This document shows, piece by piece, positions 415-13,870 of a stretch of 64,000 nt of DNA. How positions within the stretch are numbered: position 1 is the stretch's first letter; each line of letters starts with the position of its first letter. The translations under genes were made by a program, and so were the position numbers. The DNA comes from a bacterium A37T11 (GTDB lineage: Bacteria > Bacteroidota > Bacteroidia > Sphingobacteriales > Sphingobacteriaceae): the NCBI GenBank assembly GCA_900109895.1, contig FOBR01000005.1:1-64000 (forward strand). The letters run 5' to 3'. The notes under the pieces were generated by a model that searched no databases, was not told the origin of the DNA, and saw nothing but the letters and a program-made list of their open reading frames with translations.

Positions 415-483
415 TTATAAATTTGCTTTAACAGACATCAAACTAAACTTACTAAACACCACAAACAACAATGATCCGATCAT
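415..483 (-). CDS. 22-residue hydrophobic micro-ORF, possible remnant or leader peptide
   Basis: ATG at 483-481 encodes MIGSLLFVVFSKFSLMSVKANL, then a stop at 415-417, 13 bp before the TcmP-like start. Its ATG sits at the same distance from the promoter copy (about 85 bp) as the start of the 113-aa membrane protein gene at 5842 sits from its own promoter. Both frames open with Met-Ile and a hydrophobic stretch. It may be a decayed paralogue of that gene, a leader peptide, or chance. Confidence 0.25.
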   Translation of the reverse strand: MIGSLLFVVFSKFSLMSVKANL

Positions 484-641
484 GAGTAAGGTGTTTGTTT
501 ATATTGGTATATCTTAGCGAAAATTTATTTCAATCCTAATTCTTTTTAGTGTCAACTTGTATCTGCGTTTAAAGGTATAAATATAAATGCAATATTGCAA
601 GAAAAATTTTCCAGTTTACGCGATTAGGCATTTTTTCGTGG
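483..641. repeat. Left copy of a diverged direct repeat bracketing the Cas13b-CRISPR module
   Basis: The core at 594-641 matches 5951-5998 in the same orientation at 43 of 48 positions, starting ATTGCAAGAAAA and ending TCGTGG. Similarity continues leftward in patches: ATCTGCGTT at 561, AGAATTA-like and ATAAATTT-like blocks on the minus strand, and CTCATGAT at the start codon. Spacing is near constant (85 against 84 bp from the ACGC block to the ATG). The shared part therefore covers promoter, 5'UTR and start codon rather than a random segment. Confidence 0.7.
570..600 (-). promoter_or_regulatory. Predicted promoter reading left toward the micro-ORF and tcmP-like remnant
   Basis: On the minus strand TTG (600-598), a 20-bp spacer and TACCTTTA (577-570) fit the Bacteroidetes -33/-7 consensus with one mismatch. 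Transcription would begin near 564. It is the counterpart of the cas13b operon promoter at 5928-5957. Confidence 0.45.
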
Positions 642-719
642 ATTAGCCCTGCGTAATTATCATATCCGCTTTTTAACCCAGTTAATTTCTTTTTCAGGCT
701 TATGGCCCGACAGCAAATT

Positions 720-1877
720 GTTGTGGGTATTCTGCAAATTTAGGGCAATAACAAATTGGTGTAGAAGTTTCCCAACGAGAATTAAGTTGTGTGTAACCTA
801 AAAAATGAGGGCAATAACAACGATTCCGTTTTATGCCCTGTTATTGCCATTGTTGTATGTACCCTAGAAAATGAGGGCAATAACAACTATGATCATTTGG
901 AGCGTTTTTCATTGCCTGTTGTATGTACCCTACAAAATGAGGGCAATAACAACGACGTGGTAAAAAGGGTTAAGGATATAGTGGTTGTGTGTACCCTACA
1001 AAATGAGGGCAATAACAACGCGGGTATTTGCCGTATGGTCTGAAAGTAAGTTGTGTGTACCCTACAAAATGAGGGCAATAACAACCCAGGCTGCCCGCCG
1101 TCTCATCGGTAAACGGTTGTGTGTACCCTACAAAATGAGGGCAATAACAACACGGCAGATTAAGTTTGACGGGCAATCTTAGTTGTGTGTACCCTACAAA
1201 ATGAGGGCAATAACAACTCTATTTTAAATTTTCCGTCCTCGATATACGTTGTGTGTACCCTACAAAATGAGGGCAATAACAACCTAAAACAGGTAAAAAA
1301 TACAAAGTATACAGTTGTGTGTACCCTACAAAATGAGGGCAATAACAACTTGCCAATGATAGTGAATATGACGGTGATAGTTGTGTGTACCCTACAAAAT
1401 GAGGGCAATAACAACGTCGCACTATTCGCCTGCAAGGTAAAGCTAGTTGTGTGTACCCTACAAAATGAGGGCAATAACAACATTATATTAAAACACCAGC
1501 GGACCAGCTGAGTTGTGTGTACCCTACAAAATGAGGGCAATAACAACCGCTTAATTTTAAGGAGTACTCGTACTTCAGTTGTGTGTACCCTACAAAATGA
1601 GGGCAATAACAACTTGGACAACATATCTTTTACAACTGATAGCGTTGTGTGTACCCTACAAAATGAGGGCAATAACAACAAGAAGCCCCGGCGACGCTCA
1701 CTAAATCAAGTTGTGTGTACCCTACAAAATGAGGGCAATAACAACAATCCCTCCTGTCTGCTATCAGGGCAGAAGGTTGTGTGTACCCTACAAAATGAGG
1801 GCAATAACAACATAGAGGGCTTGCAACATGGAATATCCAGTGTTGTGTGTACCCTACAAAATGAGGGCAATAACAAC
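720..1877 (-). CRISPR. Type VI-B CRISPR array, 18 repeats and 17 spacers
   Basis: Repeats of 36 bp start at 720, 786, 852 and then every 66 bp to 1842; every spacer is exactly 30 bp. In the crRNA sense (minus strand) the repeat starts GTTGTTATTGCCCTCATTTT and finishes GTAGGGTACACACAAC. The ends GTTGT/ACAAC are complementary, and CCCT/AGGG inside can pair around an A/T-rich loop, as expected for Cas13b crRNAs, where the repeat forms the 3' part. Repeats from 984 rightward look identical. Those at 786, 852 and 918 carry one to a few changes, and the one at 720-755 differs at 7 positions. Decay at the left end places the trailer there and the leader at the right, next to cas13b. The constant 66-bp period keeps all frames open, so reading frames inside the array are artefacts. 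Confidence 0.98.
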
Positions 1878-2027
1878 CTTTTATATTTCAGTATTTTACG
1901 ATGTAATTTGTGTAAATAAAACATAATAAGCCCCAAATTTACAATCCTATACCGAAGGAAAATACTTAAATACTGATTAACCTAGAATTTCAAAGAACAG
2001 TTGCCATGAGCGTATGACCTGAATTTT
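1878..2027 (-). promoter_or_regulatory. AT-rich leader between cas13b and the array
   Basis: This 150-bp AT-rich gap separates the cas13b stop codon from the first (newest) repeat and holds no gene. On the minus strand TAAATTTG at 1941-1934 matches the -7 element TAnnTTTG, which would start transcription near 1927, about 50 bp before the first repeat. No clear -33 TTG sits at the right distance, so the array may instead be read through from cas13b. Confidence 0.4.
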
Positions 2028-5000
2028 TTAAGTTATGGCTTTCGAAACCCAATTAATAACTAGTTTTTCCATAAACATCGCCAGTGGTGTATGATGTTCA
2101 TTCACCCAACCTTTTATATTTAGATGAGTGACAAATGCCGACTGTTGTTCTTGGGATATAGGTTGAATGCCAAGTTTGGATATGCCCGGCCATTGATTGT
2201 GAGAAAAACGATTCCTGATTTCTTTTAAACCATTAATCTCATCAGGAGTCAGAAGTCCTTTATCCGAAAGCCAGTCGGCATATGTATTAAACTGTACCTC
2301 ATCAAAACCTTTTCCATCTTGCATTCTTTCTATCGCTTTGTGCTGCTTTATATAGGACATGTCTTTGTCCGCAATAAACTGTTCGAGCAAAAATAGTTGG
2401 TCAAATATAGTTTCTCTGGCACGATCATAGGCAGCTAGTTCAAACTGGACCAAGTCAAAATCAATTTCATCACCTGTAATACTATTAACTAGTGCAGGTA
2501 ACCTGCGATCATGAATAATTTTTCTAAAAGTTCCAAAATCCTTCAGTGTCCATCGATACCAGGCTTTATTTCTATTATTTGTTTTTTTCACTTCCTGTAT
2601 CCACTTATTGCTATCCTGTGCAACAATCTTTTTATGGGTATGTGGAATGGTTTGCTCAAAAACCATAGGTGCATCTAATGGATTGTTGCGAGATGCGGGA
2701 TGTAGATTTTCAAGTAAAAATTCCCCTTCAAAAGCAAGTTCTGAGTTATTTTTAAATAGATGCTCGCACATCAGTCGTACAATCTGATCTTTGCGCTGAT
2801 GATGACGAATTATCTTTTCGTTTACCTCAGCGGGCTTTCCGAAACGTTGTTTTAGCGCTGTGTGAGTCAGCTTTAAAATATTGAAAGGTTCAGGCTCTTC
2901 CTGAGAGAAGGGTTTTCTATAGATGCGTTCAAACTTATAAAAAGGTTGGGTGTCCTGTTTCAATAGCCGGTCTAGCAATCTTCCGAATTTGTCCTCACTT
3001 TTACTGGCTATTCCTAATTTTTGAGCGATGGTTTTTTTTAATAAACTAGTTAACGACTCGTCAAATAGGGTAGTGGGAAGGTCAATAGGCATGGTCGATT
3101 TGTGTTGGAGCCACGCATTGAATTCAAAACCTTTGTTTATGCTTTGCTTCATTTTATAGGGCAATGGCCGATTGGTGGGGAGGATATATTTTGTTAACCT
3201 CTTGCCTCTTTCCTGGATTTTGACAATTAAGTTTTGGTCTATCCAATTTTGCTTTTTCGTTAGGTATTCACGATAGACACCCAAAATGTGATGATTATTC
3301 AAGAAAATTTCGCGGATTAGAAAGACATGCCCCGTTTGATGGTTAAATAGGCCTAGCTCATCACAAAGGTCTATTAACCTGGTTTTATCTAGGGCAAAAT
3401 AAGCCAGCGCACGTTGAATTTGACTATAATAAGCGGAGGTGATACGAGATTTGGTCCTTACATCTGCCACCATATCAAGCATGTCTCTGGCTATATAGGT
3501 GGCAATGTCACCTACTTTCGGCAGCTTGTTCCTATCTATTTTCTTAAGGCGGTATTCTACCTCTTTGATCATAGTCTTTATACGGAGGTGGATGGATTTT
3601 TCATCCGATACCTCATCAATATTAAGGAGATAGTTTTGTATTTTGGTGGGCAATTGATTAACATTCAGCTTTAAGTCTGTTGTACCTTGGAGTACAGCCT
3701 TTCGTTTTTCCAGATAGATTTTGTATTCTTCCCGCTTAGCCAATTCGCTTTTTGGAATTCTTCCTTTGACCATTTTGTCTTTATCCATTCGACGGGTAAA
3801 TGTCTCAGGTGAAAAGGTAAGTCCGTTTTTTATTTTAGTTAAAGGGGCTAGATGAAATAACTGATTTTTGAATTTCGTGATAAAGCTGCGTATTAAACGT
3901 TCAATATCATTACCGATAGGTTTATTGTCTTTGTTTGTGCCGAGAAGAGCAAGAACAACAAGCTTTGGTAACTCGTTTATGCTGATGAAGGCTGTAGGTT
4001 TAATATGGTTGACTTTAATTTTTCCGTCTGGTTGTTGTGTGATGTTGGATAATGGACGATCACCCGATGGGTAATCCACCAAAATGCCGATTTTATTATT
4101 TTTTATATGATAGTGGGGAGCGTATTGAGAAAAAGTCAATGATGCATGTGGGCTGCCTGCAGGAAGTTGCCGTTTAAGGGTAGTTAATAGCGTATCTTCA
4201 TCAGAAAATTCGGCCAATGAGCCAAATCCATGGATGTCAAATTTGATGATACGGGGCGACGTCTCACCTATGATGGTTTTATCGTATGGGGAGTAGGCGA
4301 TTTTTCCTATGGAAATCTGGAAACGTATATGGTTAAATGCCTTAGTCTGCTCTAAAAACCAAAGAGCAAAGTAAGGGAAACGGTCTTCCCTGCGTATGAG
4401 TGGAGCCATCTTGCCGAGTAAATCGTCTACATCTTTAAAGGAAGCTTCATCGGTATTTTTTAATATGTTGGTCAGTGCCTCGTCATTGATACGCTCAAAC
4501 ATTTCCTGATCTTTCGGTGTGAGGTGTTTGAATAGCGATTGAGGAATTTTATTTAATTCATTGAGCATATCCAATAGGAAGGATTGACCTGGATGATCAC
4601 TCGCTAGTTTGTCGTTTGGAAGTTTGACGGTAAATGCGGTAAATACGCGCAAGGTGGCTTTAAAAGGTTGTATAGTCTCATTTTTGAAGCCGTTGAAACG
4701 CTTCAAAAATTGGTAAGCATATTTTTGTTCCAGAAACAGGGTAGTGAAAAAGAAGAGACCTTGTGTAGTCAGCTCGTTAGAATGTGGGTCTTGATATAAG
4801 TTATGTGCTTTTAAAAGCGCAAAATCTTTTTCATGAAACCCATGCGCTATCTTTTCCTGTGTGCTTCTAAATCTTCTCAAAGTGTAATCTGGTGCTTTGT
4901 AAAAGAGGTGTTCAAAATAATGCCGGAGGTTAGGGTGGAGGTCTATTTTTCTGGGTACGATATTCCCCTGTTCATCTAAAGCGAGTGCGTGGGTATAGGC

Positions 5001-5474
5001 GTCTCTAAACTTAACCAGCTCGTAAAAAAGTAAGGTTATAAATTCATATAAGTCTTGAAAGAGAACGGGGAGTATATCATCGGTATCTTTAATTATATCT
5101 TCCGTATTGATAGACGGAACTTCAAAAATAGTTACTAGGGGTAAATACCGTTTCAGAGCGCGGAATACGTGTTCGCCATAAAGCCTATGCAGTGGATGAG
5201 CAGGATTCAGTACTTCTATAATAGTAGGACTTTTGTCTGTACCTTTTCCTATGTTGATCAAATAGTCGTTAGCAATATTTTCATCATCGTTTATGGGTTT
5301 TGCATTCTCAATTTGTTTGGAAAATTTGTGAGTCAGCGCATTGATGATTTGAAATACATTATGGCGCGCCATGTTTATATATACGCCAAAATATTGTGGG
5401 TCAGCTTCCAGAGTTCTGGTGCTTGCTCGTTTTTCTGATCCTGAAGTTGATTGTTCTAGTATGTTATTATTCAT
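2028..5474 (-). CDS. cas13b: Cas13b, type VI-B RNA-guided RNA nuclease
   Basis: This 1148-aa protein is the crRNA-guided, target-activated RNase of type VI-B systems. Two HEPN motifs are visible near the two ends: R157-DAYT-H162 (in KFRDAYTHAL) and R1087-NRFS-H1092 (in IRNRFSHNQWP). This terminal placement and the length are typical of Cas13b (about 1100-1220 aa) and differ from Cas13a and Cas13d. Central segments are lysine and arginine rich, as expected for crRNA binding and repeat processing. The gene ends 150 bp before its array, reads in the same direction, and starts 26 bp after the 113-aa membrane protein gene, so the two probably share a transcript. No cas1 or cas2 lies in the window, so spacer uptake would need proteins in trans. 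Both catalytic motifs are intact and no frameshift is seen. Confidence 0.96.
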   Translation of the reverse strand: MNNNILEQSTSGSEKRASTRTLEADPQYFGVYINMARHNVFQIINALTHKFSKQIENAKPINDDENIANDYLINIGKGTDKSPTIIEVLNPAHPLHRLYGEHVFRALKRYLPLVTIFEVPSINTEDIIKDTDDILPVLFQDLYEFITLLFYELVKFRDAYTHALALDEQGNIVPRKIDLHPNLRHYFEHLFYKAPDYTLRRFRSTQEKIAHGFHEKDFALLKAHNLYQDPHSNELTTQGLFFFTTLFLEQKYAYQFLKRFNGFKNETIQPFKATLRVFTAFTVKLPNDKLASDHPGQSFLLDMLNELNKIPQSLFKHLTPKDQEMFERINDEALTNILKNTDEASFKDVDDLLGKMAPLIRREDRFPYFALWFLEQTKAFNHIRFQISIGKIAYSPYDKTIIGETSPRIIKFDIHGFGSLAEFSDEDTLLTTLKRQLPAGSPHASLTFSQYAPHYHIKNNKIGILVDYPSGDRPLSNITQQPDGKIKVNHIKPTAFISINELPKLVVLALLGTNKDNKPIGNDIERLIRSFITKFKNQLFHLAPLTKIKNGLTFSPETFTRRMDKDKMVKGRIPKSELAKREEYKIYLEKRKAVLQGTTDLKLNVNQLPTKIQNYLLNIDEVSDEKSIHLRIKTMIKEVEYRLKKIDRNKLPKVGDIATYIARDMLDMVADVRTKSRITSAYYSQIQRALAYFALDKTRLIDLCDELGLFNHQTGHVFLIREIFLNNHHILGVYREYLTKKQNWIDQNLIVKIQERGKRLTKYILPTNRPLPYKMKQSINKGFEFNAWLQHKSTMPIDLPTTLFDESLTSLLKKTIAQKLGIASKSEDKFGRLLDRLLKQDTQPFYKFERIYRKPFSQEEPEPFNILKLTHTALKQRFGKPAEVNEKIIRHHQRKDQIVRLMCEHLFKNNSELAFEGEFLLENLHPASRNNPLDAPMVFEQTIPHTHKKIVAQDSNKWIQEVKKTNNRNKAWYRWTLKDFGTFRKIIHDRRLPALVNSITGDEIDFDLVQFELAAYDRARETIFDQLFLLEQFIADKDMSYIKQHKAIERMQDGKGFDEVQFNTYADWLSDKGLLTPDEINGLKEIRNRFSHNQWPGISKLGIQPISQEQQSAFVTHLNIKGWVNEHHTPLAMFMEKLVINWVSKAIT

Positions 5475-5500
5475 ATTTAGGCATGTTTTATGTGATTTTC

Positions 5501-5842
5501 TTATATCTGCATTAACCTATTGTAGATAAACTCCAAAGACAAGTTATAGCTATTAAGTAGTTTATAGATTTTGTGATTGTTCGTGCCTTCCAAATACATT
5601 TCTTCAAAATAGATGAGTGTGCTTGTTTCATGCTGATCGATTTGCACAATGTTTAGCTCTGGTATATCTGTTCTTTCTATCGAAATTTGTGTGTATTGGG
5701 AGGTAGCATATTGGGTAGTTAACATAAAGGGAGCTATTAGAAAAGATTTTAGAACCTTTATCGCTGAAACATGCTTCCTGACCAGAGGCCGGTAGTATAA
5801 AAGACTAAGGCCAGCACAAAGCAGAACGATTACGCATATCAT
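5501..5842 (-). CDS. Small membrane protein upstream of cas13b, candidate type VI-B accessory protein
   Basis: The product has 113 residues. It begins with a hydrophobic helix (about 1-17, MICVIVLLCAGLSLLYY), a basic turn (RPLVRKH), a second hydrophobic stretch (about 29-47), and a soluble acidic tail of about 65 residues. This suggests one or two membrane passes with a C-terminal domain. It is the first gene of the cas13b transcript: its stop is 26 bp from the cas13b start and a good promoter lies 85 bp upstream. Known VI-B partners are Csx27 (about 200 aa, several membrane segments) and Csx28 (about 180 aa, one membrane segment plus a HEPN-like domain). This protein is shorter than both, and its only R-x5-H (R18-H24) lies in the turn after the first helix. 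I recognise no family. Upstream stops in frame make ATG 5842 the only sensible start. Confidence 0.72.
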   Translation of the reverse strand: MICVIVLLCAGLSLLYYRPLVRKHVSAIKVLKSFLIAPFMLTTQYATSQYTQISIERTDIPELNIVQIDQHETSTLIYFEEMYLEGTNNHKIYKLLNSYNLSLEFIYNRLMQI

Positions 5843-6192: not shown

Positions 6193-7398
6193 ATGAACAA
6201 TAATTTTTTAAGTGAAGACGAAATAAATGCGTTACGCAGTCAAACAAGAGGATGCAAAGATATTATCCATTTTAATAATGCGGGATCTTCCCTAAATCCG
6301 GATGTGGTGATCGATACCGTCGTTGATTATTTGCAAGAAGAAGCTACATACGGTGGGTATGAAACGGAAAACAAGCACTATGAGCGCATTGAAGACACCT
6401 ACAGGTTTATTGCAAAACTAATTGGAGCGGAAAAGGAAGAAATTGCCTTGTTTGAAAACGCTAGCGCCGCATGGCAGACCGCTTTTAAAGGGTTAACCTT
6501 TGCAGAGGGAGATGAAATCATAACCAGCGAGCTGGAATATGTATCAAACCTAATTGGCCTGGCCGATATCCAAAAGAAAGGTGTTAAAGTCGTTGTTATA
6601 AACAACGATGAACACGGCGATTTTCCGTTAGGCAAGCTGGAAGCTGCCATTAGCCCACATACGAAACTGATTGCTGTAACCCACATCCCATCATCGGGTG
6701 GCGGTATGATACCGATCGAAGCGATCGGTAAGATCGCTGCAAAGCACAAGGTGCTGTACATGGTGGATGCTTGCCAAAGTGCCGGGCAATACCCCATTGA
6801 TGTAAAAGAGATTCAATGTGATATCTTATCCGCAACAGGCCGCAAATATTTGAGAGCACCAAGAGGAACAGGATTTTTATTTGTAAAGAAGGCTATCCAG
6901 GATCAGCTGTCACCAATGCTAACCGATTTTCTTGCTGCAAGCCAGGTGAGCCTGAACGGTTATACCTTGCGCCAGGATGCCCGGCGTTTTGAACTTTACG
7001 AAAAGAGCAGGGCATTAACGCTTGGCCTAGGCAAAGCTGCTGAATATGCGCTAAACATTGGCTTAGACCGGATATGGCAACGCGTGCAAGGGCTGGCTGA
7101 ATACACCCGCACAGCTTTAGGCAATATTCCAAATGTTAAAGTTCATGACCATGGTAGCGAAAAGTGTGGTATCGTCACTTTTTCAGTGGATGGATTCGAT
7201 AGTATGGTGGTTAAAAACAAGCTGGTTGAACATGGCATCAACGTATCTTTTGGAGGGGCACATGCCACACCTTTATATATGGAAAAAAACCAGCTACAAG
7301 GTATTGTAAGGGCTTCCTTTCACTATTATAATACCGAGGCAGAAATTAATAAAATGTGCAGTTATTTGATGGCGATATTTGGAGGGGGTACAATGTAA
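6193..7398 (+). CDS. PLP-dependent class V aminotransferase (cysteine desulfurase-like fold)
   Basis: The 401-aa protein has the fold type I PLP signature of class V enzymes: an N-terminal FNNAGSS substrate loop, the ENASAAWQTAF cofactor phosphate region near residue 90, VDACQSAGQ with the cofactor-binding aspartate near 192, and ATGRKYLRAPRG with the Schiff-base lysine at about 218. No desulfurase-type catalytic cysteine loop stands out near the C-terminus. The enzyme may therefore be closer to isopenicillin epimerase-like or EgtE-like C-S lyases than to IscS or SufS. The substrate cannot be read from the sequence. It is monocistronic under the promoter at 6106-6136. Confidence 0.85.
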   Translation: MNNNFLSEDEINALRSQTRGCKDIIHFNNAGSSLNPDVVIDTVVDYLQEEATYGGYETENKHYERIEDTYRFIAKLIGAEKEEIALFENASAAWQTAFKGLTFAEGDEIITSELEYVSNLIGLADIQKKGVKVVVINNDEHGDFPLGKLEAAISPHTKLIAVTHIPSSGGGMIPIEAIGKIAAKHKVLYMVDACQSAGQYPIDVKEIQCDILSATGRKYLRAPRGTGFLFVKKAIQDQLSPMLTDFLAASQVSLNGYTLRQDARRFELYEKSRALTLGLGKAAEYALNIGLDRIWQRVQGLAEYTRTALGNIPNVKVHDHGSEKCGIVTFSVDGFDSMVVKNKLVEHGINVSFGGAHATPLYMEKNQLQGIVRASFHYYNTEAEINKMCSYLMAIFGGGTM

Positions 7399-9146: not shown

Positions 9147-12100
9147 ATGTTAAAAAAAACGAACTATAAGGATCTTCTGGGAAAATCCCAAAGGTTCAAG
9201 CAATATAAAAGCTTAGTAGCTTTTATGTGTGTCTTGCTCGTATACCAATTACCAAACCTCGTGATGGGGCAGGATACCACTAAAAATACAAGTGCCAACA
9301 CCAGTCAATCAGAGATTACTGTAAACGGAAAGATCATTGATGCAGCCACCAAGGATCCGCTGGCCGGGGTTTCGGTGATGGTAAAAGGTACTACTAAAGG
9401 AAGCCAAACGAATGCCCAGGGGAATTATACTATTCAAGTTCCGGGATCTGCACGCCTTATTTTCTCCTATATCAGTTATCAATCGCAAGAGATACCCGTT
9501 AATAGCCGGGCAATTATCAATGTTTCATTAAAAGGGATCGATAATCAGCTTGATCAAGTGGTGGTAGTTGGTTATGGTTCATTAAAGCAAAAGGAAGTAA
9601 CTTCTGCCGTAGCTCACGTGGATTCGGCCCAGTTCAGACAAAGTGGCGCACGAAACCCCCTTGACCTCATACAAGGTAAAGTGGCTGGATTACAAGTTTC
9701 GCGTACCGGATCAAACCCAAATTCAGGAGTTGGGGTTCAGCTGAGAGGGGTGGTGTCTGTTACGGGAAGTTCGGGTCCGCTGTACGTTATTGACGGCATC
9801 CCGGGAGGAAATCCGGATTTGCTCCAACAAGACGATGTAGCGTCCATTGACGTATTGAAAGATGGGTCTGGCGCTGCTATCTACGGAACGAGTGCCAATG
9901 CCGGGGTCATTTTGATCACCACTAAAAAGGGAAAGGCGGGGCCTCCTGTGTTTACCTATAATAGTTATTTCAGAAAAGATTTTGTATACAATAGACCAGA
10001 TTTTCTTACCGCGGCAGAATTTAGGCAAAAAATTGAATCGGGTGAACTGGATGCTACGGACTATGGCCATTCCACCGATTTTTTTGATGCTCTTATCAAT
10101 AAAGATAATTTCTCAAATAACCATAATTTATCACTATCAGGAGGGTCTGAAAAAACCAATTACCGGGCTAGTATAAACTATCGTAATTTGGAGGGAATTG
10201 CGCTACAAAACGCTCGGAAAGAATATACTATTCGGATGAGTGTCAATCAAAAAGGATTTCAGGATAAACTGAATATGCAACTAAACTTGGCTACCAATAC
10301 CAACAAAGCAAATATGCTGGGAGGAGGTGGTTGGGAAAGTGAAGCGACTAAAAATCCTACGTTGTCAAATTTTAATGACGATGGGACTTATCGTTTTGAT
10401 AATACCAGCACCAACGAATATGCACGATTGTTTCAGGAAACCAATTATCGTAAACAAGAAACATCTTCTGCCGACACAAAGATTGATTTGGATATTATAG
10501 AAGGGCTCAAGGCAACAGTCTCTGGTTCCATACAACGTAATAGCTATATAGATGGCGCCTACCGTTTACGGGCAAGTGAAGATTCAAAAGAAAACACAGA
10601 CTTTCCCAACGGAGGTTATGCCTCTAAGGCTAACCTTTTATCCACTTCTTATGCATTTGAGCCAACGTTATCTTATAACAAAATGTTTGCTGATAAACAT
10701 AATTTAACAGCTATGGCCGGTTATAGTTATCGGTATTTTATGGAAGAAGGTCAAAGTGCAGATAACCGGGGCTTCTTAAATGATAACTTTAATGAAAATA
10801 ACTTAGGCGAAGGAGAGGCCTTAGCTTTAGGTAAGGCTAATTTGGATAGTTATAAAAACGATAATACACTCATTGCATTTTTCGGAAGAATTAATTACGC
10901 TTATGATGAAAGGTATTTGGTGCAATTCATTCTTAGACATGAAGGATCTTCTAAGTTTGGAGAAAATCATAAGTGGGGAAATTTTCCGGCTGTATCTGCA
11001 GGATGGAATATAACCAATGAAGATTTTATGAAAGATGTTAGTTTTATAAACTACCTGAAGCTTCGGGCAGGGTATGGAGTAACAGGAAATTCGGGTTTTG
11101 CCAACAATGCCTCACGGCTTACGTTGGGCACCGGAGGTAAATACTTATACCCGGATCTAGCTTATCGTCAAACTTATGGACCCGATAGAAATCCAAATCC
11201 TGATTTACGCTGGGAAAGTAAGCGGGAAACCAACGTTGGGCTTGATTTTGGTTTTTTGGATAATAAATTGACCGGATCAGTCGACTTTTTTAATAGGACT
11301 ACCAAGGATTTGTTGGATACTTATACGTCTCCTCAACCCCCCTACGTGAGAGATAATGTATATACGAACGTAGGTACATTATCGTCTAAAGGTGTGGAAT
11401 TAGCAATAAGTTATGCAGCTATTAAAAAAGAACATTTTAGTTGGAGTATGGACTTAACAGCAAGTACGTTAAGTAATAAAATGAATTCTTATTCAAACAG
11501 TACATATGTGGTTAAATATAAAACATTTGGCGGTATTGGTGGAGCAGGTGATTTAGGTGATGCTTTTACTACTTTTGAAGGAGGTAAAATTGGGCAATTT
11601 TTTGGAAAACGGTTTGCAGGTTTTACGGATGATGGTAAATGGTTATTTTATAATCACAATGGCGAAAAGGTGTTGAATGATCAAATAAATAATTCGCGCG
11701 ATGATTTAGGGGCAACTGACTATGCGGTAATTGGAAATGCAGTTCCAAAGTATTATTTTTCATGGACCAACAGTTTTACTTACCACAATTTTGATCTACG
11801 AGTTTTTATGCGTGGTAAATTGGATTATGATATCTTAAATACCACAGCCATGGCTTATGGGAATAAAGTTTGGAAGGGCAATCTGTTACGGGATGCTTTT
11901 GGAAAATATAAACAAATAGATGATACCTATATGTATTCAGATTATTATTTGGAAAGTGGTAGTCATCTTAAGATTGATGAGATAACGCTAGGCTATAATT
12001 TCAAGCCTAAAACCAAATATCTGAGTAATTTAAGAGTGTATGTTACCGGACAAAATCTTTTTACCATAACGGGATACTCCGGAAATGATCCGGATATGGT

Positions 12101-12215
12101 GTTGGACACGGGCCTGGGGAATGCCGACGTTAATGGTCAAAGGTTAGGAATAGATAGCAGAGGGCCATATCCTAATACTCGTTCTTTTTTATTTGGTATA
12201 AACGCAAGCTTTTAA
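9147..12215 (+). CDS. SusC/RagA-family TonB-linked outer membrane protein
   Basis: This 1022-aa protein imports large substrates, typically glycans or peptides, across the outer membrane using TonB energy. Visible in order are a signal peptide (about 1-41, ending VMGQ), a carboxypeptidase-regulatory-like domain (about 56-132, VNGKIIDAATKDPLAGVSV), a TonB-box-like DQVVVVGYG near 136-144, a plug domain with the SusC-typical YVIDGIPGG and a DVLKDGSGAAIYGTSANAGV segment, then a large beta-barrel ending in the aromatic FGINASF. It overlaps nothing; the SusD partner starts 2 bp after its stop, so they form one transcript. No degradative enzyme or local regulator flanks the pair, so the substrate is unknown. 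Confidence 0.95.
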   Translation: MLKKTNYKDLLGKSQRFKQYKSLVAFMCVLLVYQLPNLVMGQDTTKNTSANTSQSEITVNGKIIDAATKDPLAGVSVMVKGTTKGSQTNAQGNYTIQVPGSARLIFSYISYQSQEIPVNSRAIINVSLKGIDNQLDQVVVVGYGSLKQKEVTSAVAHVDSAQFRQSGARNPLDLIQGKVAGLQVSRTGSNPNSGVGVQLRGVVSVTGSSGPLYVIDGIPGGNPDLLQQDDVASIDVLKDGSGAAIYGTSANAGVILITTKKGKAGPPVFTYNSYFRKDFVYNRPDFLTAAEFRQKIESGELDATDYGHSTDFFDALINKDNFSNNHNLSLSGGSEKTNYRASINYRNLEGIALQNARKEYTIRMSVNQKGFQDKLNMQLNLATNTNKANMLGGGGWESEATKNPTLSNFNDDGTYRFDNTSTNEYARLFQETNYRKQETSSADTKIDLDIIEGLKATVSGSIQRNSYIDGAYRLRASEDSKENTDFPNGGYASKANLLSTSYAFEPTLSYNKMFADKHNLTAMAGYSYRYFMEEGQSADNRGFLNDNFNENNLGEGEALALGKANLDSYKNDNTLIAFFGRINYAYDERYLVQFILRHEGSSKFGENHKWGNFPAVSAGWNITNEDFMKDVSFINYLKLRAGYGVTGNSGFANNASRLTLGTGGKYLYPDLAYRQTYGPDRNPNPDLRWESKRETNVGLDFGFLDNKLTGSVDFFNRTTKDLLDTYTSPQPPYVRDNVYTNVGTLSSKGVELAISYAAIKKEHFSWSMDLTASTLSNKMNSYSNSTYVVKYKTFGGIGGAGDLGDAFTTFEGGKIGQFFGKRFAGFTDDGKWLFYNHNGEKVLNDQINNSRDDLGATDYAVIGNAVPKYYFSWTNSFTYHNFDLRVFMRGKLDYDILNTTAMAYGNKVWKGNLLRDAFGKYKQIDDTYMYSDYYLESGSHLKIDEITLGYNFKPKTKYLSNLRVYVTGQNLFTITGYSGNDPDMVLDTGLGNADVNGQRLGIDSRGPYPNTRSFLFGINASF

Positions 12216-12217
12216 TT

Positions 12218-13870
12218 ATGAAACAGATAATAAAAAATAGTTTTTGGGTTTTACTTCTTTTTTGTGGTAATGCCTGTACTAATCTTGATGAACACGCATA
12301 TGATGTGATCATTGCTAACGAATTTTATAATAACAAAGATGAAATCTTATCAGCGGTATTGCGTCCTTATACACATGCCAATGCTTGGACTACACCATCC
12401 GGACAGGACGGTTGGTGGCGTTTGGCTGAACTTTCTGGTGATCAGTTAGCGTGGCCTACGAAAGGCCGCCATGGTGAAGACAATGGCAAGTGGAAAAGGC
12501 TGCACTACCATACTTGGACCGTGGACGAAAGTGGAATTGCCAATGCATGGAAACTTATGTACTGGGGAGTTGGGCTCTGTAACGATCCTATACGAAAACT
12601 AGATAGTTTGGATTTGGCCAAGGTTGGGATCACAGAGGAGGAAAAGACCTCTTACATGGCAGAATTAAAATTACTTCGAGCATTTCACTACCTGAAGCTT
12701 TTGGATCTTTTTGGAAATGTTCCTATTCAGACTACTGTCCCAGACAATCTAAATGCTGAACTTCCTGAAACGAGTAGTAAAGAAGAAGTTTATAAATTTA
12801 TAGAAGATGAAATTAAAGACAATATAGCAGATGTACCCGTCTTGTCGCAAGAAATGAAAGGTCGTATGACAAAGGCTGGTGGGTATGCTATGCTTACTGA
12901 GCTTTATCTGAATTCAGAAGCATGGATTGGTACTCCACGCTGGGACGACTGCATTGCTGCTGCTGATCAAATTATTAAAGGTATAGGCGGAGCGCAAAAT
13001 GGTAAGATGACATTAGATTCTAATGTAACAGATACTTATAGCAATACAAATGACATATCATCAACTGAAGTTATCTTTTCGGTTGCTTATGATTATAAAA
13101 CCGCTAACTTTCCAATAGGTCTGGAAGAGTTTTTTCATTTTAAAGAAAAGGAAATTGAAGGTTTTGGTCGCAATGGCAATGATGGCGTAGTTTTGATCCC
13201 TGGAGTATATACAACTTATAAAGATAACGATATGCGAAAGAAAAGCTGGTTTCTGATTGGACAACAGTATAAGTTTGCAGATGGTACTGAAGTTACGGGC
13301 TCTGAAGAATATGATGGTAAGCCTTTGGTATTTGTTGATTATATTCGTAAAGCGTCAAAAGGTGGTACCGCTTCTACCATGAGTGAAGGTGAAGAAAACA
13401 GTGGTGTACGATTTCATAAGTATAAATTAGGTAATTCCATAGCAGGCATTGTAAATGGTAAAACAGTACAGCCTGATGTTAATTATAATAATAACGATTG
13501 GGATACGTACCGACTTAGCTGGATTTACTTTGCAAAAGCAGAGGCCCTGATGCGGAAAAATGGAGGCATTGCCACGCAAGAAGCTGTCGATCTGGTAAAC
13601 GCTGTTAGGAAAAGAGCTTTTCCGGCTAAGTCCTGGAAGGCTAATAAATATACGACTGCTACGCTAACTATGGATGAGTTGCTGGCGGAACGCGGTCGGG
13701 AATTCATTTTTGAAGGCTTCCGAAGGGATGACCTGATTCGTTTTGGCAAATTGACTACCGGAACTTGGTGGGATCACCAGCCGTCGCAGGACTTCCGGAA
13801 ATTATTTCCTATTCCTCAACAGCAAATTTCATTAAACCCCAAACTAACACAAAATCCGGGGTATAATTAG
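12218..13870 (+). CDS. SusD/RagB-family surface lipoprotein
   Basis: The 550-aa product is the substrate-binding lid partner of the upstream SusC. It has a lipoprotein signal with cysteine 20 (LLLFCGNAC), then the SusD N-terminal region with NEFYNNKDEIL and the TPR-like helical scaffold (ELKLLRAFHYLKLLDLFGNVPI is typical). The C-terminal RagB/SusD part has WIYFAKAEALMRKNGG and LLAERGREFIFEGFRRDDLIRFG, which are hallmark segments, and ends PIPQQQISLNPKLTQNPGY. Full length for the family. Stop and start of the pair are separated by 2 bp, and a strong hairpin follows the gene. Confidence 0.95.
   Translation: MKQIIKNSFWVLLLFCGNACTNLDEHAYDVIIANEFYNNKDEILSAVLRPYTHANAWTTPSGQDGWWRLAELSGDQLAWPTKGRHGEDNGKWKRLHYHTWTVDESGIANAWKLMYWGVGLCNDPIRKLDSLDLAKVGITEEEKTSYMAELKLLRAFHYLKLLDLFGNVPIQTTVPDNLNAELPETSSKEEVYKFIEDEIKDNIADVPVLSQEMKGRMTKAGGYAMLTELYLNSEAWIGTPRWDDCIAAADQIIKGIGGAQNGKMTLDSNVTDTYSNTNDISSTEVIFSVAYDYKTANFPIGLEEFFHFKEKEIEGFGRNGNDGVVLIPGVYTTYKDNDMRKKSWFLIGQQYKFADGTEVTGSEEYDGKPLVFVDYIRKASKGGTASTMSEGEENSGVRFHKYKLGNSIAGIVNGKTVQPDVNYNNNDWDTYRLSWIYFAKAEALMRKNGGIATQEAVDLVNAVRKRAFPAKSWKANKYTTATLTMDELLAERGREFIFEGFRRDDLIRFGKLTTGTWWDHQPSQDFRKLFPIPQQQISLNPKLTQNPGYN

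Follow-up and report, generated by a model that had tools for sequence, protein, structure and literature searches.

A compact type VI-B CRISPR–Cas13b locus with a clean repeat array in a Sphingobacteriaceae-type genome where no cas1 was found

The window, a stretch of 64,000 nucleotides, contains a bona fide type VI-B CRISPR locus that consists of an array and cas13b only. The array is probably read leftward, its memory is probably fixed, and most likely either the locus was transferred recently or its host recently lost Cas1; we give this reading as a whole a probability of about 0.78. Judged from its sequence, the locus is a fairly ordinary RNA-targeting VI-B system, and its unusual side, the part worth following, is the missing Cas1. 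The features are as follows.

466..649, plus strand: copy of a dispersed intergenic repeat, left of the array
720..1877, minus strand: CRISPR array in which 18 36-nt repeats alternate with 17 spacers, each of 30 nt; the repeat reads GTTGTTATTGCCCTCATTTTGTAGGGTACACACAAC in crRNA sense
720..953, minus strand: leader-distal (oldest) array end, with repeats at 720, 786, 852 and 918 carrying 7, 2, 2 and 1 substitutions
1878..2027, minus strand: inferred leader, bounded by the array and the stop codon of cas13b, with the motif TTCTTTGAAAT
2028..5474, minus strand: cas13b, 1148 aa, HEPN motifs R157-x4-H162 and R1087-x4-H1092
5501..5842, minus strand: 113-aa ORF in front of cas13b, probably left over from the N-terminal part of an unrelated exported protein of ~400 aa
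5951..5998, plus strand: partial copy of the dispersed intergenic repeat, right of the locus

Results

The effector is a Cas13b

A first-pass annotation, made from the letters alone, had assigned the 1148-aa ORF to type VI-B and called for a search with Cas13b models. The search confirms the assignment. The protein matches NCBIfam NF038190 (VI_Cas13b) with an E value of 7.5e-243 and 808.8 bits, where the cut-off is 150, and the PADLOC Cas13b model with an E value of 1.9e-178. Among proteins of known structure, it matches PbuCas13b (6dtd; E 7e-38) and PspCas13b (E 3e-22) by sequence. The two R-x4-H motifs lie where they had been placed, near both ends of the protein, and read RDAYTH at 157-162 and RNRFSH at 1087-1092. 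In an alignment of 13 homologues, one row of which is a partial protein, R157 and H162 are invariant, and R1087 and H1092 are nearly so.

The AlphaFold2 model of the protein (mean pLDDT 74.8, pTM 0.61) has a Cas13b fold. Specifically, a fold search with the predicted model returns 6dtd with a Z score of 27.6 over 861 residues, followed by 8wf9 (24.7) and 6aay (20.1). Cas13bt3 and Cas13h1 score lower (Z 13-19), and Cas13a and Cas13d score ~8 or less. The rmsd between the model and solved Cas13b structures is large (~10 Å), so the domains are placed differently or poorly. Thus, the ORF is the Cas13b of a bona fide type VI-B locus.

The array and the locus are intact in sequence

The repeats start at an exact 66-bp period from 720 to 1842, and every spacer is 30 nt long, in agreement with the 18-repeat array described at first reading. 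The 36-nt repeat with pairing ends and the ~30-nt spacers are those of a type VI-B array. From the array to position 6193 there are only cas13b and the 113-aa ORF; the locus is free of cas1 and cas2, as had been noted and as is typical of type VI-B.

The first-pass annotation had also called the system intact, and the sequence agrees: the frame of cas13b runs uninterrupted for 1148 codons, both HEPN sites are kept, and 14 repeats are identical, whereas neglected arrays, such as those of loci L025 and L082, are visibly decayed. These features argue against the locus being a relic that has lost expression of cas13b or transcription of the array. Such a relic would be consistent with the lack of Cas1 and of a recognisable accessory gene, with the gene remnant in front of cas13b, and with a sigma-70-type promoter scan that found no more matches than in shuffled sequences, although the sigma-70 model is ill-suited to Bacteroidota. 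On balance, we consider a relic improbable.

Array polarity and leader

Counted from the cas13b side, the first 14 repeats do not differ from one another, and substitutions number 1, 2, 2 and 7 in repeats 15-18, respectively. The substitutions are confined to the left end of the array, which marks it as the old end and places the leader in the 150-bp interval that separates the array from the stop codon of cas13b. The minus-strand repeat has the features GTTGT, a TTTG core, GGTA and ACAAC in common with related VI-B repeats, each read with its cas13b. It is also predicted to fold better on the minus strand (-11.0 kcal/mol, z -2.59) than on the plus strand (-8.9 kcal/mol, z -1.62). Both the orientation and the polarity of the array agree with those of related loci. 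A leader at 1878-2027 and crRNAs transcribed from the minus strand are thus well supported predictions, consistent with the leftward transcription proposed before.

Because the repeat is almost a palindrome, it can fold on either strand, and crRNAs might in principle be read from the plus strand with a leader left of position 720. We rejected this as very improbable, because the decayed repeats are at the left end and because the minus-strand repeat resembles related VI-B repeats read with cas13b and has the better fold.

A leader-repeat hairpin has been described for VI-B (PMC13187072). As in that system, the guide-repeat array of the window adjoins the leader, but no such hairpin is predicted here: the mean pairing of the first repeat is 0.00 with the leader and 0.66 with itself.

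The motif TTCTTTGAAAT occurs in three VI-B leaders, namely that of the window and those of loci L023 and L077. For its looser form, the expectation by chance is ~0.02 per 300-nt flank, and the motif lies at variable distances from the first repeat (120, 86 and 37). Separately, three loci (L023:7499-7534, L024:7856-7891 and L077:6976-7011) have a leader-side repeat that is decayed in its 5' half and preserved in its 3' half. This repeat precedes the first intact repeat by exactly one repeat-spacer unit, and is perhaps a way to stop formation of a crRNA with a leader-derived guide.

We infer the working of the locus from these features. The array would be transcribed leftward from the leader adjoining the cas13b stop codon, and Cas13b would cut the transcript into spacer-repeat crRNAs. 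On meeting a complementary RNA, Cas13b would cleave RNA by its paired HEPN site. The decay gradient shows polar growth of the array, by addition at its leader end.

The small upstream ORF is probably a gene remnant

The 113-aa ORF has a hydrophobic N-terminus and is co-directional with cas13b, which it precedes by 26 bp. No NCBIfam, Pfam or PADLOC model matches it; as a control, PADLOC recognises the Csx27 of locus L026 with an E value of 1.7e-63. The ORF was therefore rejected as Csx27 or Csx28 for want of a match to VI-B accessory models. Type VI-B1 (Bergeyella zoohelcum, Csx27) is similar to the window in its Cas13b fold (6aay, Z 20.1) and 36-nt repeat, but csx27, inconsistently present within VI-B1, is absent from the present locus and is present in related loci L026, L046 and L077. 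Type VI-B2 (Prevotella buccae, Csx28) is similar in its Cas13b, both by sequence (6dtd, E 7e-38) and by fold (Z 27.6), but csx28, said to be universal in VI-B2 (PMC8209922), is not recognised in the locus, and the operon has no further gene.

The best relative of the ORF among 191 family genomes searched is a 400-aa protein of genome G141 with a signal-peptide-like start, which has a second family member in genome G106. The ORF aligns to residues 8-93 of this protein with 38% identity over 86 columns, with gaps in the aligned part, and a tblastn E value of 1e-9 against the window. The remaining ~300 residues are absent from the window. On this alignment, the ORF is probably a gene remnant. What had been described as a small leftward membrane gene is thus present as an ORF with a hydrophobic start, but it resembles a truncated piece of another gene.

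The position of the ORF close to cas13b, its direction and its hydrophobic start would fit a real membrane accessory that modulates Cas13b, as a new counterpart of Csx27 or Csx28, and Csx27 occupies the same place in the three related loci named above. However, none of the other Cas13b loci fetched has a homologue of the ORF, its best relatives are the N-terminal parts of 400-aa proteins in genomes where Cas13b was not found above the cut-off, and the remainder of such a protein is missing here. We regard an accessory role as very improbable.

Two related Cas13b loci (L079:4767-6329 and L080:4933-6249) have a divergent gene of 520 and 438 aa, respectively. The two proteins are homologous to each other (E 6e-25) and show a weak CorA-like match along with two hydrophobic helices in the C-terminal part. 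The gene is possibly a membrane accessory of its Cas13b clade; in PMC12669027, CorA is mentioned only in connection with type III. In another locus (L084:3364-5960), PtuA/PtuB-like (Septu) genes lie between the VI-B array and cas13b.

No cas1 is found in the genome

A search with the PF01867 profile finds no cas1 in the genome of the window (5.09 Mb, a 60-contig draft, 97.5% complete). With this profile, cas1 is found in genome G649 and in 9 of the 14 control genomes, and not in genomes G101 and G626 or in Pedobacter cryoconitis (G394). Overall, cas1 is present in 9 of the 18 genomes with Cas13b over the cut-off, 2 of which are <90% complete; it is undetected in eight Cas13b genomes besides that of the window. 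VI-B loci are described as lacking adaptation genes, and most of their hosts are said to carry another locus with cas1 and cas2 (PMC8209922). That VI-B is usually said to borrow Cas1, yet half of the sampled Cas13b genomes show none, makes a general question testable.

Repeat decay was scored as substitutions against each array's own consensus in 14 arrays, with end repeats left out. The fraction of intact repeats is 0.81 for the window and 0.26, 0.17, 0, 0.42, 0 and 0 for the other arrays in cas1-less genomes, vs 0.95, 0.42, 1, 0.60, 1, 1 and 1 in cas1-bearing genomes. Thus, among the sampled Cas13b genomes, the state of the repeats follows the presence or absence of cas1: arrays in cas1-less genomes tend to be decayed, and those in cas1-bearing genomes do not (7 vs 7; Mann-Whitney P ~0.004, in a small sample, post hoc and uncorrected for phylogeny). 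The window is the exception among the cas1-less arrays, with repeats as clean as in the cas1-bearing group. Substituted repeats in systems without adaptation modules have been noted for type VII (PMC12669027); we found no direct VI-B precedent in the literature for repeat decay after loss of cas1.

Clean repeats without cas1 would fit if the locus arrived recently by horizontal transfer, if cas1 was lost recently, or if cas1 lies in sequence that was not assembled. Because the genome is a draft and position 1 of the window is base 1 of its contig, with the array beginning 720 bp from that contig end, cas1 could be missing from the assembly.

A known case of acquisition in trans is Flavobacterium columnare, where a II-C system has been shown to supply spacers to VI-B (PMC8092290). 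Like the locus of the window, the F. columnare VI-B locus has Cas13b only, without csx27 or csx28; its transcription from leader to array is the direction predicted here. F. columnare has a Cas1 elsewhere in the genome, whereas none was found in the genome of the window. Trans acquisition may nevertheless continue in the present host if Cas1-Cas2 of another CRISPR locus lies in an unassembled part of the genome or was on a lost plasmid. The clean repeats, the incomplete draft and its break beside the array, and the F. columnare precedent are in line with this. The PF01867 search, positive in control genomes and negative across 5.09 Mb, and the eight other Cas13b genomes likewise without cas1 argue against it. 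We consider continued acquisition unlikely, and the earlier proposal that spacers are acquired in trans is not supported by the assembled genome. With no Cas1 found in the present genome, the memory is probably fixed for now.

Locus L079 has a 756-aa reverse transcriptase-Cas1 fusion (745-3015) on the same 10.8-kb contig as its VI-B array and cas13b.

Distribution and origin

Cas13b over the cut-off occurs in 3 of 400 family genomes, including that of the window, which adds a diverged Cas13b from a family where it is rare. The nearest relative found is the Cas13b of P. cryoconitis M2T3, with which it pairs at 45% identity (support 100/99); this genome is listed as of the same family, consistent with the Sphingobacteriaceae-type host proposed at first reading. 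P. cryoconitis was also the sole match in a scan of genome contigs, and searches of plasmids and phages gave no Cas13b match. Another genome of the family, G101, has a distant Cas13b in another part of the tree, beside that of G626.

The locus of P. cryoconitis M2T3 (NZ_JACHCC010000016.1; L021/L024) is similar to that of the window in having cas13b followed by an array, a similar repeat and no cas1 found in the genome. It differs in that its array is strongly decayed, with a mean of 3.05 substitutions per repeat, and in that its upstream gene, which bears no relation to the 113-aa ORF, encodes 269 aa with a match to a zinc ribbon.

The rarity and patchy distribution of Cas13b suggest horizontal transfer, a history that here rests on patchiness only. 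Most likely, the locus came recently by such transfer, or the host recently lost Cas1. More tentatively, many VI-B systems in Cas1-less genomes may arrive with a ready array, hold a fixed and decaying memory and be replaced by transfer, with the window caught shortly after arrival; we think this generalisation somewhat less probable than not.

The 48-nt direct repeats that flank the locus were rejected as attachment sites. They belong to a dispersed repeat, and so are no evidence for a mobile cassette. This intergenic repeat of ~184 bp has 12 matches in the genome, including those in the window and others on contigs C17, C20, C34 and C44, and is clustered on contig 17.

Spacer matches and neighbouring genes

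The search of the spacers against phage and plasmid sequences suggested earlier yielded no target: nothing beyond chance was found in INPHARED phages, PLSDB plasmids, 196 family genomes or eight IMG/VR scans. In the IMG/VR scans, eight spacers were each represented by a single pattern, exact or codon-degenerate, which makes this a weak negative. Three candidate matches were rejected. One, a 20-nt match to rho that recurs in many genomes, includes 15 nt from spacer 9, the other 5 nt being repeat, and was judged to be chance; a 25/30 match in genome G139 falls in an unrelated gene; and a peptide-level viral match of spacer 4 has only 20/30 identical bases.

Farther to the right in the window (9147-13870), two adjacent genes encode proteins of 1022 and 550 aa, which look by eye, from their translations, like a SusC/SusD-type outer-membrane pair.
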